Shown here: positions 11,465 to 18,309 of the stretch, piece after piece | Position numbering within the stretch: the stretch's first letter is position 1 | How the letters are laid out: each line of letters opens with the position of its first letter | Origin: Reyranella sp. | Lineage (GTDB): Bacteria; Pseudomonadota; Alphaproteobacteria; Reyranellales; Reyranellaceae | Direction: 5' to 3' | NCBI GenBank assembly: GCA_004296815.1 | Contig: SCVT01000680.1 | Location: forward strand, 1 to 22,406 | Length of the DNA stretch: 22,406 nt | Made by a program: the position numbers and the translations under genes | The notes under the pieces: model-generated | Seen by the model: the letters and a program-made list of their open reading frames with translations, nothing else | Database searches by the model: none | What the model was told of the DNA's origin: nothing

Positions 11465-12337
11465 ATGCCCGACCTGATCGCCGTCGACTGGGGAACGAGC
11501 TCGCTGCGCGGGGCGCGCCTCGATGCCGAGGGGCGCGTGCTCGAGGAGAAGAGTGCGCCACTCGGAATCCTGAACGTCCCCAACGGTGACTTCGCCGGCA
11601 CCTTCGCCGCGCAGTTCACCGACTGGATGAAGCCGGCGGGCAGCGTCTGCCTGATCTCCGGCATGGCCGGCAGCCGGCAGGGCTGGGTCGAGGCGCCCTA
11701 CGCGGCGTGCCCCGCGGGCCCCGGCGAGCTGGTGAAGAATCTCCACTGGATCGAGCCGGGGCGCATCGCGATCGTGCCCGGCCTCAGCGACGAGCAGGGC
11801 GACGTGCCCGACGTGATGCGCGGCGAGGAAGTGCAGATCTTCGGCGCGATGCGGCTTGCCAACCTGAAGGACGGGCTGTTCGTGCTGCCCGGCACGCACA
11901 GCAAATGGGCCACCGTGCGCGGCGGCAAGGTCATGGGCTTCCGCACCTTCATGACCGGCGAGTTCTATGGGCTGCTCGGCCAGCATTCGATTCTCGCGCG
12001 AACACTGGAAGCCGATGCGCCGCTCGATGAGGCAGCCTTCTTGCGTGGCGTGACGCGGGCGGCCGCAGGCGAGGGGCTGCTGCACAATGCCTTCGGCGTG
12101 CGCGCGCTCGGCCTGTTCGGCCGGCTGACGCCGACAGAGTCCGCGAGCTACCTCTCCGGCCTGCTGATCGGCGAGGAGATGCGGGCGCAGGATCTGTCTG
12201 GTGGCGCAGAGGTGATCGCGATCGGCGCACCGGCGCTCACGGCGCGCTATGCTCTCGCTCTTGGGCAAAGGAACGCGCGCGTGCGCAGCTTTGGCGCCGA
12301 GGCGACGTGGGCGGGATTGAGGGCGCTGCTGCCATGA
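11465..12337 (+). CDS. dgoK: 2-dehydro-3-deoxygalactonokinase
   Basis: A 290-residue sugar-acid kinase that phosphorylates 2-keto-3-deoxygalactonate at O6 in the De Ley-Doudoroff pathway. The N-terminal IAVDWGTSSLRGARLD (5-20) is the DgoK phosphate-1-type motif. SGMAGSRQGWVEAPYAACPAG and LPGTHSKWATVRGGKVMGF-type blocks are characteristic, as is FMTGEFYGLLGQHSIL. The length matches DgoK. It overlaps the downstream aldolase by ATGA (12334-12337), giving coupled translation. The third pathway enzyme, a galactonate dehydratase, is not adjacent; a candidate acid-sugar dehydratase lies at 20687. Confidence 0.93.
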   Translation: MPDLIAVDWGTSSLRGARLDAEGRVLEEKSAPLGILNVPNGDFAGTFAAQFTDWMKPAGSVCLISGMAGSRQGWVEAPYAACPAGPGELVKNLHWIEPGRIAIVPGLSDEQGDVPDVMRGEEVQIFGAMRLANLKDGLFVLPGTHSKWATVRGGKVMGFRTFMTGEFYGLLGQHSILARTLEADAPLDEAAFLRGVTRAAAGEGLLHNAFGVRALGLFGRLTPTESASYLSGLLIGEEMRAQDLSGGAEVIAIGAPALTARYALALGQRNARVRSFGAEATWAGLRALLP

Positions 12338-12966
12338 AGGCGATCGACAAGTTCACGGCCGCGATGGCGGAGCTGCCGCTGGTCGCGATCCTGCGCGGGC
12401 TCAAGCCCGCCGAAGCGGCCGAGATCGGCGACATGCTGGCCGAGGCGGGTTTCCGCCTGATCGAGGTCCCGCTCAACTCGCCGCAGCCGTTCGACAGCAT
12501 CGCCACCTTGCGCAAGCGCTTGCCACAGGCGGTGATCGGCGCCGGCACGGTGCTGACCGCGGCGGAAGTGCGCGACGTGGCGCAGGCCGGCGGCGAGCTG
12601 GTCGTCGCACCGAACTTCGAGCGCGACGTCGTCGCCGAGACAGTGCGGCTCGGCATGGTGAGCCTGCCCGGCATCATGACTCCCACCGAAGCCTTCGCAG
12701 CGCTCGCCGCTGGCGCGCATGGGCTGAAACTCTTCCCGGCCGAGATCGCGTCGCCCGCCGTCGTGAAGGCGCTGCTGGCCGTCCTGCCCAAGGGCACGAA
12801 GATCGTGCCGGTCGGAGGCGTCGGTGCCGACAATCTCGGGCCCTGGCGCGCTGCTGGCGCCGCGGGCTTCGGTCTCGGCTCGTCGCTCTACAAGCCCGGT
12901 GACGATGCCGCGACGGTGCGCGCCAAGGCCGCCGCCATCGTGTCGGCCTTTCGCCGTTCGTCCTAG
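12334..12966 (+). CDS. dgoA: 2-dehydro-3-deoxy-6-phosphogalactonate aldolase
   Basis: A 210-residue class I aldolase that splits 6-phospho-2-dehydro-3-deoxygalactonate to pyruvate and glyceraldehyde 3-phosphate. The TIM-barrel landmarks are [26 protein letters not shown] (E44, general acid/base), [28 protein letters not shown], and GLKLFPAE with K132 as the Schiff-base lysine. LNSP and VAPN features favour the galactonate (DgoA) over the gluconate (Eda) enzyme, and the upstream dgoK agrees. Start codon ATG overlaps the dgoK stop. Its stop TAG shares bases with the stop of the convergent gene (12963-12966). Confidence 0.93.
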
Positions 12967-14338: not shown

Positions 14339-14956
14339 TCAGTCGGCGAGGGCGCCGAGATAGCGCCGGACGTCGGCGTCCGCGACGATCGTGCCGAAGT
14401 CGGCGAAAGGCCGCACGCTGCCGCCGCCCACGAAGAAGAAGCGCTCGCAGATCTCGCGCAGCAGCTCGAGATGGAGCCGCGCGGTCGGATGGAGACAGAC
14501 GAACACCAGCCGCCGCTCGTCGCGCAGGCGGCGGAAGAAATCGAGCATGAAGCCGATATAGCCATCCTGGGTGTTGAACTGCGGCTCGTCGAACAGATGC
14601 ACGACGGGATAGGCGCTGCCTGCCGGCTCCAGCATGAAGTTCGGCCGCGTGCGCGAGAAGCGGCGCACCTGGTAGCTCTGGTGATAGTGGATGGCCAGCC
14701 GGTCGCGCTCGCGGTAGCGGACCTGCTGCATGTCGTGCCCGGCCACCATCACGCGGCCCTGGGTGGGCGTGTTGGAGCCGGCAATCATCTCGAACAGCGT
14801 CGTCTTGCCCGCGCCATTGGGGCCCATGACGCCGACGATCGCCGGTTCGTCGATCCGGAAGTCGACGTCGAGCCGGAACGCCGGCGTGCGGTCGAGCAGG
14901 CCGCGGCGGTAGATCTTGCTGACGCCTTCCAGTGCGAGCAGTGGGGCGTCGCTCAT
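14339..14956 (-). CDS. ABC transporter ATP-binding-like protein lacking the signature motif
   Basis: A 205-residue shortened ABC ATPase, last of the liv-type operon. Walker A is GPNGAGKT (45-52), a Q-loop Gln lies at 93 or 96, Walker B is VVHLFDEPQ (D123, E124), and an H-loop His is at 156 in VFVCLHPT. There is no LSGGQ-type signature, and only about 28 residues separate Q-loop and Walker B where 60-70 are usual, so most of the helical subdomain is missing. The frame is open and motif order is intact, so it does not look like a frameshift. It overlaps the livF-like stop by ATGA. It may be a regulatory or paired ATPase; its function is unknown. Confidence 0.8.
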
Positions 14957-15654
14957 CGCGCGCCTCCCAGCAATGTCCGCTTGAGCGCGGGATCGGCGGC
15001 GAGCTGGGCCGCATCGCCGCTCCAGGCCACGGTGCCGTGCGACAGCACGACGACGCGGTCGGCGACGGAGAGCGCGATGTCGGCGTTCTGCTCCACCACG
15101 ATCGAGGCGATGCCCTCGGTCTTGAGGCGGCGGACCACGCCCATCACGTCGTCGACGATCTTGGGCGCGAGGCCCTGGCTCGGCTCGTCGAACAGGACGA
15201 GGCCGGGTGAGCCCAGCAGCGCCCGGCCGATCGCGACCATCTGCATCTCGCCGCCCGACAGCGTCTCGGCCTCGCGCGCCATCAGGTACTTCAGCGCCGA
15301 GAAGATGTCGGTCACTTCCGACATCGACCAGGCGCGGAAGCGCGTCGACTTGATGCCGAGCGCCAGGTTCTTGGCGACGGTCAGGGTCGGGCAGAGGCGG
15401 CGGTCGTCGGGCACCCAGCCGATGCCGGCGCGGGCGATCTCGTGCGTGGCGCGGCTGCCGAGCGGCCGGCCTTCGAAGGCGATGTCGCCCGTGCGCGGCC
15501 GGGTGAGGCCCAGGATCGAGCGCAGCACCGTGGTCTTGCCCGCGCCGTTGGCGCCCAGCAGCGCAAGCACCTCGCCGGCCGCGACCGACAGGGAGACGCC
15601 GAACAGCGCCTGCGTCTCGCCGTAGTAGGTGTCGATGGAGCGGACCTCGAGCAT
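14953..15654 (-). CDS. Branched-chain amino acid-type ABC transporter ATP-binding protein (LivF-like)
   Basis: A 233-residue ABC ATPase of the LivF type. Walker A GANGAGKT (34-41), signature LSGGEMQ (132-138), Walker [14 protein letters not shown] (D156, E157) and [15 protein letters not shown] with the LivF-type EQN in place of EHD (H-loop region). The length is normal. It would pair with the LivG-like ATPase to drive transport at the inner membrane. Its ATG overlaps the LivG stop (TCA/CAT at 15652-15656 on the plus strand), and its own stop overlaps the next start, so translation of the operon is coupled. Confidence 0.93.
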
Positions 15655-16397
15655 CAGGCGAGCTTCCCGAGGTTGGAGTTCTTCACCCAGGGATTGGTCC
15701 TGAGCTCGTCGGGGCTGCCGCGCGCGATCACCTGCCCCCAGTGGATGACCGAGATGGTGTCGGCGAGCGAGAACAGGAACTCCATGTCGTGCTCGATCAC
15801 CACAAGGGTCACCTGGCCCTTCAGCCGGCGCACTAGCTCTGCCAGCCGCGCGCGGCCGTCGCTGCCGAGACCCGCCGTCGGCTCGTCAAGAAAGAGGAGC
15901 TTCGGCCGCGAGGCCAGCGCCACGGCGATCTCGAGCGCGCGCCGCTCGCCGTAGGGCAGCGCTTTGGCGATGTGGTCGGCGCGGGCGCCCAGCCCGACCG
16001 TGTCGAGCAGCTCGTGCGCCTCCTCGACGACAGTCGCGTCGCCATAGGCCTGCCCGATCGGATCGGCGCCGCGCCGGCGCGTTTGCGGCAGCGCGATGGC
16101 CACGTTCTCGAAGACCGTGAACTCGTCGAACAGGTTCATGAGCTGGAACGACCGCGCGATGCCCAGCCGCGCGATCGCCTGCGGCGAGCGGCCGGTGATG
16201 TCGGCGCCGTCGAACATCACCCGTCCGCGGTCGGGCCTGTAGCGGCCGGTCAGCACGTTGAAGCAGGTCGTCTTGCCCGCGCCGTTGGGGCCCATGATGC
16301 CCGAGAGCCGGCCGGCCTCGAAGGCGAGCGAGACGTCCTCCAGCACGACGCGATCGCCGAAGCGCAGGTGAAGCTGGTGGGCCTCGAACAGCGCCAT
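15654..16397 (-). CDS. Branched-chain amino acid-type ABC transporter ATP-binding protein (LivG-like)
   Basis: A 247-residue ABC ATPase of the LivG type. Walker A GPNGAGKT (36-43), the LivG-type ARSFQLMNLFDEFTVFENV Q-loop region, signature LPYGERRALEIA, Walker B LLFLDEPTAGLG and H-loop VVIEHDMEFLFSLAD. The start at 16397 gives the normal LivG opening (MALFEAHQLHLRFG); a longer reading from 16505 lacks family similarity. It begins 2 bp after the LivM-like stop and overlaps the LivF-like start. With the two permeases it forms the transporter core. Confidence 0.93.
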   Translation of the reverse strand: MALFEAHQLHLRFGDRVVLEDVSLAFEAGRLSGIMGPNGAGKTTCFNVLTGRYRPDRGRVMFDGADITGRSPQAIARLGIARSFQLMNLFDEFTVFENVAIALPQTRRRGADPIGQAYGDATVVEEAHELLDTVGLGARADHIAKALPYGERRALEIAVALASRPKLLFLDEPTAGLGSDGRARLAELVRRLKGQVTLVVIEHDMEFLFSLADTISVIHWGQVIARGSPDELRTNPWVKNSNLGKLA

Positions 16398-16399
16398 GG

Positions 16400-17386
16400 C
16401 TATTTCTTCGCGTCCGCGGGCGCAGGACGCGCCGGGCGGATGAACATGCCGCCGAGGCCCTCGGGCTTGTGGATGACCAGCGCCACGAACAGCAGGCCGA
16501 ACCACAGCATCCAGCCCGTGGTGACGGCGCCAATGACGTCACGCGCCAGCAGGAACACGATGGCGCCCAGCACCGGCCCCCAGAAAGTGACGAGGCCGCC
16601 GCCGACCAGCGTCATCATCACGATGTAGCCGGAGTAGTGCAGGCTCATCACGTCGGGGAAGGCCGAGCTCTGCGCCATCGCGAACAGGCCGCCGGCCAGC
16701 CCGGACAGGCCGGCCGACAGGACCAGCACCGCGGCCTTGAAGCGCCACACGTCGTAGCCCACGAAGCGGGCACGGGTCTCGTTCTGCTTGATCGCCTTCA
16801 GGATGCGGCCGAACGGCGAGTGGACGAGGCGCCACAGTAGCAGCGAGACCACGACGAAGATCGCCAGCACGAAATAGAACAGCGAGATGTTGTGCGTGAG
16901 GTCGAAGGTCGCCACGCCGAACCGCGCCGGCAGGCGGGCGATCTTGAGCAGCCCGTCCTCGCCGCCGGTGATCGCGTGCGACTTTATGGCGATGAACCAG
17001 AAGACCTGGCCGAAGGCGATGGTGAGCAGCGAATAGTAGATGCCGCGGCGATGCGAGATGAAGGCCGCGACGAGCGCGCCGCCCACCGATGCCACGACGA
17101 CGGCGGCGGCGAGGCAAAACCACAGGTCGGGCACCAGGTTGAGCTGCGCCAGGCCGAAGCCGTAGGCGCCCAGCCCGAAGAAGGCGCCGTGCCCGAACGA
17201 GGGCAGGCCGCTGTGGCCGAGCACGAGATTGTAGGCCAGCGCATAGGTGGCGAAGATCAGGATCTCGACGCCGAGATACTGGTAGAGCCCGACCTTCTCG
17301 ATCCACAGCGGCACCGTGGCGAAAGCGAGCCAGATCGCGATCATGGCCGGCGTGAGGGTGGGAACCGTGCGACCCGTGCGCATCAT
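16400..17386 (-). CDS. Branched-chain amino acid-type ABC transporter permease (LivM-like)
   Basis: A 328-residue inner-membrane permease with roughly nine to ten hydrophobic segments. LivM landmarks are YALAYNLVLGHSGLPSFGHG (the G-x-x-S/G-FGHGAFFG loop), IYYSLLTIAFGQVFW, SPFGRILKAIKQNETRARFVGYD (the EAA-like cytoplasmic loop contacting the ATPase), and VGGGLVTFWGPVLGA. It starts with ATG 17384-17386, overlapping the LivH-like stop; a second ATG follows directly. A 30-residue upstream extension from 17476 is rejected because it reads through LivH coding sequence and has no family similarity. Confidence 0.92.
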   Translation of the reverse strand: MMRTGRTVPTLTPAMIAIWLAFATVPLWIEKVGLYQYLGVEILIFATYALAYNLVLGHSGLPSFGHGAFFGLGAYGFGLAQLNLVPDLWFCLAAAVVVASVGGALVAAFISHRRGIYYSLLTIAFGQVFWFIAIKSHAITGGEDGLLKIARLPARFGVATFDLTHNISLFYFVLAIFVVVSLLLWRLVHSPFGRILKAIKQNETRARFVGYDVWRFKAAVLVLSAGLSGLAGGLFAMAQSSAFPDVMSLHYSGYIVMMTLVGGGLVTFWGPVLGAIVFLLARDVIGAVTTGWMLWFGLLFVALVIHKPEGLGGMFIRPARPAPADAKK

Positions 17387-18309
17387 GCCTCCAGGACGCT
17401 CTTCTTGCCGAACAGGCCGCGCGACCTGAACGTGACGATCAGGATCAGCAGCAGGTACATCGAGAGCATCGACCATTCCGAGGCGTAGGCGCCGGACAGG
17501 CCGACCACCATGCCGACCAGCAGGCCACCCAGCACGGCGCCCCAGAAGCTGCCGACGCCGCCCAGCACGATGATCACGAAGGCGGGGATCACGGCATCGA
17601 CGCCCATGTGCGGGCGGATGCCCCAGATCGGCGCCAGGATCACGCCGGCGACCGCGGCCATCACCGTGCCCAGCACGAACACCCAGACGCGCAGCTTCTC
17701 GAGATTGTGGCCCAGCGCCTGGACGATCTCGCTGTCGTGGGCACCGGCCTTGACCAGCGCGCCGAAGCGCGTGCGCTCGATGACCAGCCAGACGACCGCC
17801 ATGGCGATCACCGCGAAGCCTGCCGCCCAGAAACGGTAGGTCGACCAGATGAGGTCGAGCATCAGGAAGCCGCCCGAGATGCCGCGCGGCACCGGCAGCA
17901 TGTAGTCGCGCGTGCCCCAGGCGATGCGGATCAGCTCCTCGATCACCATCGCCGCGCCGAAGGTGAGCAGCAGTCCGTAGAGCGGGTCGCGGCCATAGGT
18001 CCGCCGCATGAGCCGCTCGAGGATGACGCCGAACGGCGCCACCAGCACGGGGGCGAGGAACATCGCGGCGGTGAAGCGCCAGCCCAGCGGCACCTGCGCC
18101 CAGACCTGCAGCATGTCGGGCGGCAGCGGCAGGCGCGGCGTCGCGATCGCGTGGGCGAAGTAGGCGCCCAGCGCGAACAGCGAACCGTGCGCGAGGTTGA
18201 TCTGCTCCATCAGCCCCAGGATCAGCATGAATCCCAGGGCCAGCAGGGCGAACAGCAGGCCGAGGGCCAAGCCGTTCACCAGATGGGGCAGAAGTCCGAC
18301 GATCGACAC
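17383..18309 (-). CDS. Branched-chain amino acid-type ABC transporter permease (LivH-like)
   Basis: A 308-residue inner-membrane permease. LivH landmarks are LVNGLALGLLFALLALGFMLI, LMEQINLAHGSLFALGAYFA (N-L-A-H-G loop), RTRFGALVKAGAHDSEIVQALG (ATPase-contact loop) and FVIIVLGGVGSFWGAVLGG. The start codon is GTG at 18309 (MSIVGLL), 18 bp after the binding-protein stop, with no strong Shine-Dalgarno, which may keep its level below that of the binding protein. The stop overlaps the LivM-like start. Confidence 0.92.
   Translation of the reverse strand: MSIVGLLPHLVNGLALGLLFALLALGFMLILGLMEQINLAHGSLFALGAYFAHAIATPRLPLPPDMLQVWAQVPLGWRFTAAMFLAPVLVAPFGVILERLMRRTYGRDPLYGLLLTFGAAMVIEELIRIAWGTRDYMLPVPRGISGGFLMLDLIWSTYRFWAAGFAVIAMAVVWLVIERTRFGALVKAGAHDSEIVQALGHNLEKLRVWVFVLGTVMAAVAGVILAPIWGIRPHMGVDAVIPAFVIIVLGGVGSFWGAVLGGLLVGMVVGLSGAYASEWSMLSMYLLLILIVTFRSRGLFGKKSVLEA

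Follow-up and report, generated by a model that had tools for sequence, protein, structure and literature searches.

The two-signature ATP sandwich is the textbook core of ABC transporters. In each site of the ABC dimer, the signature of one subunit meets the Walker motifs, the Q-loop and the H-loop of its partner, and the helical subdomain of ABC importers normally contacts the permease. PhnK and PhnL of the C-P lyase are both complete ABC proteins, and LptB likewise contains a complete signature. PhnK and PhnL are reported to be two different ABC ATPases in one machine, forming a double dimer on an enzyme complex; they offer a precedent for dual ABC ATPases but are not importer subunits (PMC9947105). 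LptB is the dimeric ATPase of the LPS exporter, and passages on its C-terminal region report that this region is partly conserved with LivF/G and essential for LPS transport (PMC6703430).

The window analyzed in this study is a stretch of 22,406 nucleotides from Reyranella sp., which encodes a Liv-type operon on the minus strand with the gene order substrate-binding protein (SBP), LivH, LivM, LivG, LivF and a sixth gene, here called X. The SBP (Peripla_BP_6, PF13458; 18328..19620) is followed by two PF02653 permeases of the LivH type (17383..18309) and the LivM type (16400..17389; its ORF opens at 17476 and its start codon is not settled). According to profile matches and alignment, the LivG-type ATPase (247 aa; 15654..16397) has a Q-loop Gln, an H-loop His and the signature LPYGE, and the LivF-type ATPase (233 aa; 14953..15654) has the signature LSGGE, with Asp as its Q-loop and Gln as its H-loop residue. 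X itself is a signature-less short ABC ATPase of 205 aa (14339..14956, minus strand), delineated from its ORF and translation and from relatives in other contigs, and overlaps LivF by 4 bases. A divergent regulator with a SIS domain (PF01380; 19708..20580, plus strand), which we take to be of the RpiR type, has a homologue in 64 of 80 loci. X resembles LivG and LivF of the HAAT (Liv/Urt) importers in sharing their operon, in its ABC core, in the C-terminal V-R-x-YLG and in a profile match from Walker A to the Q-loop. Unlike the LivF and LivG of the window, it is 28-42 residues shorter, has no signature or helical subdomain, carries a unique D-loop helix and is a third ATPase beside two complete ones.

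Relatives of X were taken from the best 80 of 221 stretches found at E≤1e-3 (57-90% identity) and from four loci of genome relatives. The resulting 84 proteins comprise 83 of full length (204-220 aa) and one that is ended by a contig edge; they correspond to 80 and, for the full-length set, 79 distinct sequences, as three genomes came from both searches and two loci are identical. The nearest relatives among the best 80 of 221 are from Reyranella (90% identity).

The Pfam profile ABC_tran (PF00005) matches only residues 30-98 of X, corresponding to profile positions 3-71 of 137. All motifs of X are read from the minus strand. Walker A (residues 45-53; 14798..14824) follows the pattern GxNGxGKTT in 83/83 full-length relatives. 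The subsequent strand, Q-loop and post-Q-loop segment (residues 84-98; 14663..14707) is nearly invariant and includes HQSYQ, which is present in all 83. The Q-loop glutamine is Q93 or maybe Q96, the latter being the residue paired when X is aligned by profile with another family that lacks the signature (see below). A short linker (residues 97-118; 14603..14668) of constant length (83/83) but variable sequence in the alignment stands in place of the helical subdomain and LSGGQ. Gln93 and the Walker B Asp123 are 29 residues apart in 83/83 proteins; the equivalent spacing in the same operons is 72 in LivF (79/81; the motif used for the search is absent from the other two) and 85 in LivG (80/80), counts that take in the window and duplicate genomes. 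In the predicted structure, the stretch that links strand 88-91 to strand 119-123 contains only a three-residue helix (106-108). Walker B (VVHLFDEP, residues 118-125; 14582..14605) contains D123 and the catalytic-type Glu124, and its FDEPQ is kept in 83/83. It is followed by an X-specific, near-invariant D-loop and helix (residues 126-141; 14534..14581), the H-loop CLHP with H156 (residues 154-157; 14486..14497; pattern in 83/83) and a C-terminal VRRYLG of the LivF/LivG kind (residues 196-201; 14354..14371), of which Y199 and G201 are invariant in 47 aligned sequences. The same alignment shows Gln93, Q96, Glu124 and His156 to be invariant as well.

Compared with a canonical ABC NBD, X thus has Walker A, Walker B with its catalytic Glu (83/83), a Q-loop Gln and an H-loop His (both in the 47 aligned sequences), and lacks the LSGGQ-type signature and the helical (ABC-alpha) subdomain. 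This agrees with the preliminary description of the locus, which had presented X as the sixth gene of a liv-type operon and an addition to the usual two ATPases, with intact Walker A, Walker B and H-loop, with LSGGQ and most of the helical subdomain missing (about 28 residues left between Q-loop and Walker B), and therefore incapable of forming a normal sandwich alone. In a comparison with NCBIfam (25 of 140 families listed), X scores below the curated cut-offs (given in brackets), with 41.4 bits for UrtE (285.8), 41.4 for UrtD (304.1) and 39.7 for LivG (362); the listed families do not include the LivF model.

The short form is a fixed property of the family. A regular expression for the signature matched two of the 83 full-length proteins, both times within the 'PSSGQ' loop directly after Walker A, so that no X has a signature in its place (0/83). 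The preliminary description had also considered a deletion derivative kept by coupling, in which case relatives with a full-length LSGGQ version might be expected at this locus; none was found among the 84 relatives examined (best 80 of 221 plus four), and none of intermediate or full length between E 2.2e-98 and the cut-off of 1e-22 in 398 genomes of the phylum. Although the ATGA overlap with LivF, seen in 21/80 loci, would fit a non-functional derivative or a sequencing error retained by translational coupling, we give this explanation practically no weight, as all 83 full-length relatives are short with intact motifs and X evolves under constraint. Five comparisons with close relatives gave dN 0.07-0.12, dS 0.50-0.71 and dN/dS 0.10-0.20. 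The mean distance over 52 loci is 0.340 for X, 0.346 for LivG and 0.308 for LivF; X hence diverges at about the rate of LivG and slightly above that of LivF. Given the fixed short form, intact motifs and purifying selection, sequencing error or decay was rejected. X is thus a real, motif-intact protein family under purifying selection and tied to its operon.

X is rare but discrete: it occurs in 8/337 genomes of the class, in 5/61 relatives and in 5/398 genomes of the phylum, the window's own included each time. All phylum matches (seven candidates scored per genome) have E≤2.2e-98. The taxa with X comprise Alphaproteobacteria, Ramlibacter, Polaromonas, Aquabacterium, Gammaproteobacteria, Desulfosarcina, the Olavius Delta symbiont, Deltaproteobacteria and Binatia, a range in which binning errors are possible because many records are metagenome-assembled genomes (MAGs). 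No X match (E≤1e-30) was found in 72,556 plasmid records. A search for defence systems gave just three weak ATPase matches, and this identity of X was rejected. The 60 solved structures listed, of 369 matched sequences, are ordinary ABC proteins by name and match X to about residue 91 at most; no solved structure matched LivG at 1e-40 or LivH at 0.001. With regard to the substrate, the hits of the SBP are extracellular, branched-chain or urea binding proteins. Narrow phrase searches of CC-licensed PMC text returned, by title and passages, no paper on a signature-less ATPase of liv operons.

The shortened ATPase recurs in other liv-type operons, where the preliminary description had proposed to look for it: the complete order SBP-LivH-LivM-LivG-LivF-X is found in 68/80 loci. 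In six of the 12 incomplete loci (Ramlibacter, Polaromonas, Aquabacterium), the SBP lies on the opposite strand and LivH is absent from the available stretch; another four loci lie at contig ends, and the last two (L029 and L039) are without other operon genes. LivF is located immediately upstream of X in 78/80 loci; of the other two, L087 is interrupted by the end of its contig and L028 has a gap of about 0.5 kb. X and its cognate SBP occur in the same 8/337 genomes of the class, own included, and stand together in six of them; in the other two the operon is split by contig ends into complementary pieces. In partial distance correlations over 52 loci, X has its highest value with LivF (0.29), followed by LivM (0.21) and LivG (0.12), while LivF's top partner is LivH and that of LivG is LivM; the X-LivF correlation is weak and the 52 loci share phylogeny, so it may serve as a hint.

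The two loci without other operon genes have bearing on a further explanation, by which the partner of X is not part of the transporter but, for example, a catabolic enzyme or the adjacent regulator, and X is placed in the operon for co-expression. In L029 (1548-7615), the LivF-X pair is found amid dehydrogenase genes, beside an NMT1-type SBP, a permease and an ATPase, with no LivG, LivH, LivM or cognate SBP; the genome, a MAG of unknown completeness, has no SBP match and no LivG above 44% identity. L039 also has LivF-X alone, but its LivF may be decaying, since it is N-truncated with an altered Walker A. Such pairs without adjacent permease genes would suit an outside partner. We nevertheless consider this explanation unlikely, because X is encoded directly after LivF and shares its 8/337 genomes with the SBP, and the downstream enzymes vary among loci. 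Genes around X include short-chain dehydrogenases (clusters c7 and c11, in 44 and 17 of 80 loci), an aldehyde dehydrogenase (24), a Gfo/Idh/MocA oxidoreductase (19), an upstream NAD_binding_2 dehydrogenase (18), an IlvD/Edd dehydratase (14) and an HpcH/HpaI aldolase (9), each cluster being identified from one representative; that of the IlvD/Edd dehydratase scores above the L-arabinonate dehydratase cut-off. In the window, a 2-keto-3-deoxygalactonokinase and a 2-dehydro-3-deoxy-6-phosphogalactonate (KDPGal) aldolase are encoded beside the transporter (11465-12966, plus strand). Together with the genes at other loci, these two enzymes hint at a sugar-acid importer of the Liv type, and a sugar or sugar acid as the transported substrate is a lead. 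A cystathionine gamma-synthase family enzyme (NF005455; 12963-14252, minus strand) follows X on the same strand.

The two complete ATPases of the operon are asymmetric. All 81 LivF sequences of the X operons carry Asp as the Q-loop residue, and all 81 have SGGE; LivG has a Q-loop Gln and a variable xxYGx signature in 80/80. In an aligned subset, the H-loop residue of LivF is Gln in 12/13 and His in 1/13, and that of LivG is His in 13/13; when a crude pattern was applied to the whole set, 64/81 LivF showed Gln and 74/80 LivG showed His. Paralogues in the window's genome were compared as well. Among the 13 most LivF-like of 31 matches, the Q-loop residue is Glu in 12 and Gln in one, and the H-loop residue is Gln in 12 and Lys in one; the 10 LivG-like proteins, of 18 matches, all have Gln and His, respectively. 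The Q-loop Asp of LivF in X operons (14953-15654, minus strand, in the window) therefore differs from the Glu of 12/13 same-genome paralogues. LivF thus has an odd Q-loop and H-loop with a good signature and LivG the reverse, which implies that the canonical site consists of the LivG core and the LivF signature and that the other site is non-canonical.

A second signature-less core was found in the same MAG, on contig C685 (G000:C685; L006 499-2031; L170 571-2100), as a LivM-LivG fusion of 510 aa with Walker A, FQ, DEP, DHD, a C-terminal VRxxFLG and 26 residues from Q-loop to Walker B. The fusion is present in 19/61 genomes, one of them the window's own; all 19 belong to the 37 genomes of this genus, and a class-wide search (E≤1e-48) found it in 1/337 genomes, the window's own; it is confined to the genus among the 61 and 337 genomes searched. 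No match was found in the 72,556 plasmid records (E≤1e-100). The Q-loop Gln and Walker B Asp are separated by 26 residues in 14/19 and by 25 in 5/19, Walker A and DHD are kept in 19/19, and the LivG half has a signature in 0/19. Four of the 19 matches contain an internal stop, and some copies may therefore be damaged. A LivF match is located downstream in 19/19 (partial in three), with LSGGQ in the two fully read LivF. Five regions examined (6.8-16 kb) gave no match to another LivG, so that the signature-less LivG core appears to be the sole LivG beside LivF there. The fused half has lost the same region as X, its spacing of 25-26 residues comparing with 26 in the window's X when counted from Q96. 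It differs from X in being joined to LivM, in apparently substituting for LivG instead of being extra, and in sequence (27% identity in the profile alignment). Its core model (pLDDT 87.7) has a linker helix (102-111) before Walker B that is absent from X. In trees, the branch leading to X has a length of about 2.2 substitutions per site, and two of three trees place it beside the signature-less LivG; the linker-free tree groups both inside LivG (UFBoot 100), and the AU test rejects none of three placements of X (p 0.68, 0.31 and 0.41).

Both X and the fused LivG half retain the canonical half and lack the signature that serves the other site. Dropping a signature that is used only in a non-canonical site could explain why these losses are tolerable, and predicts LivF as the partner of X; the persistence of the LivF-X pair in L029 points in the same direction. 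We propose that X is a dedicated subunit in one clade of HAAT importers, that it forms a sandwich with LivF which contains a single signature, and that it replaces LivG or gates it; we estimate the probability of this reading at about 0.45. X would bind ATP and bring in Walker A, Walker B, the Q-loop and the H-loop. With the LSGGE of LivF, these would make up a single full canonical ATP site, the one that the LivG core and the LivF signature would also form. The site forgone would be the LivF core with the LivG signature, which is already non-canonical (Asp/Glu Q-loop and Gln H-loop of LivF). The preliminary description had left it between asymmetric pairing with a LivG- or a LivF-like subunit; on comparative grounds, LivF is favoured. 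Because the operon also retains a complete LivG, X would most likely alternate with LivG or displace it on LivF. The retention of LivG also means that X is not needed to complete the motor, and the adjacency to LivF may reflect gene order only. Both Glu124 and His156 are invariant, which suggests a role of hydrolysis in X. As X has no permease-contacting helical subdomain, an ATP-dependent brake or gate would be likelier than a second power stroke, this gate role being the least supported step of the proposal.

Two other arrangements of X have to be weighed here. The conservation of HQSYQ in 83/83 proteins would be compatible with a homodimer that has no signature and uses the HQSYQVR segment behind the Q-loop in place of LSGGQ, but the near-constant LivF neighbour makes a hetero-pair simpler, and we regard the homodimer as very improbable. 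X might instead be a regulator, a role that the preliminary description had also considered. It would then sense ATP and bind to LivF, LivG or a permease loop without entering the ATP sandwich, its contacts being the post-Q-loop segment and the YIGFMLDFF helix. Both are among the most conserved parts of the family, Phe136 of the helix aligns with Arg/Gln in LivG and Asp in LivF, and residues 91-100 have the lowest confidence in the structure model, as a partner-ordered loop might. Against this stand Glu124, His156 and both candidate Q-loop glutamines, whose invariance in 47 sequences exceeds the need of a pure ATP sensor, and the fused signature-less LivG, which suggests that such a core can occupy the motor position. 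We regard a regulator outside the sandwich as somewhat less probable than pairing with LivF.

More speculatively, the Liv-type motor may be so asymmetric that the signature and helical subdomain of one partner are dispensable. This would have been exploited in two settings, independently or not: LivG was shrunk in the fusion, and X was added as a spare half-motor that swaps with LivG on LivF to switch between working modes. X and the fused LivG are natural deletion mutants with which to ask if a single composite site is enough and which function the helical subdomain has, and the third ATPase X may serve as the recognition mark of a subtype of Liv-type transporters.
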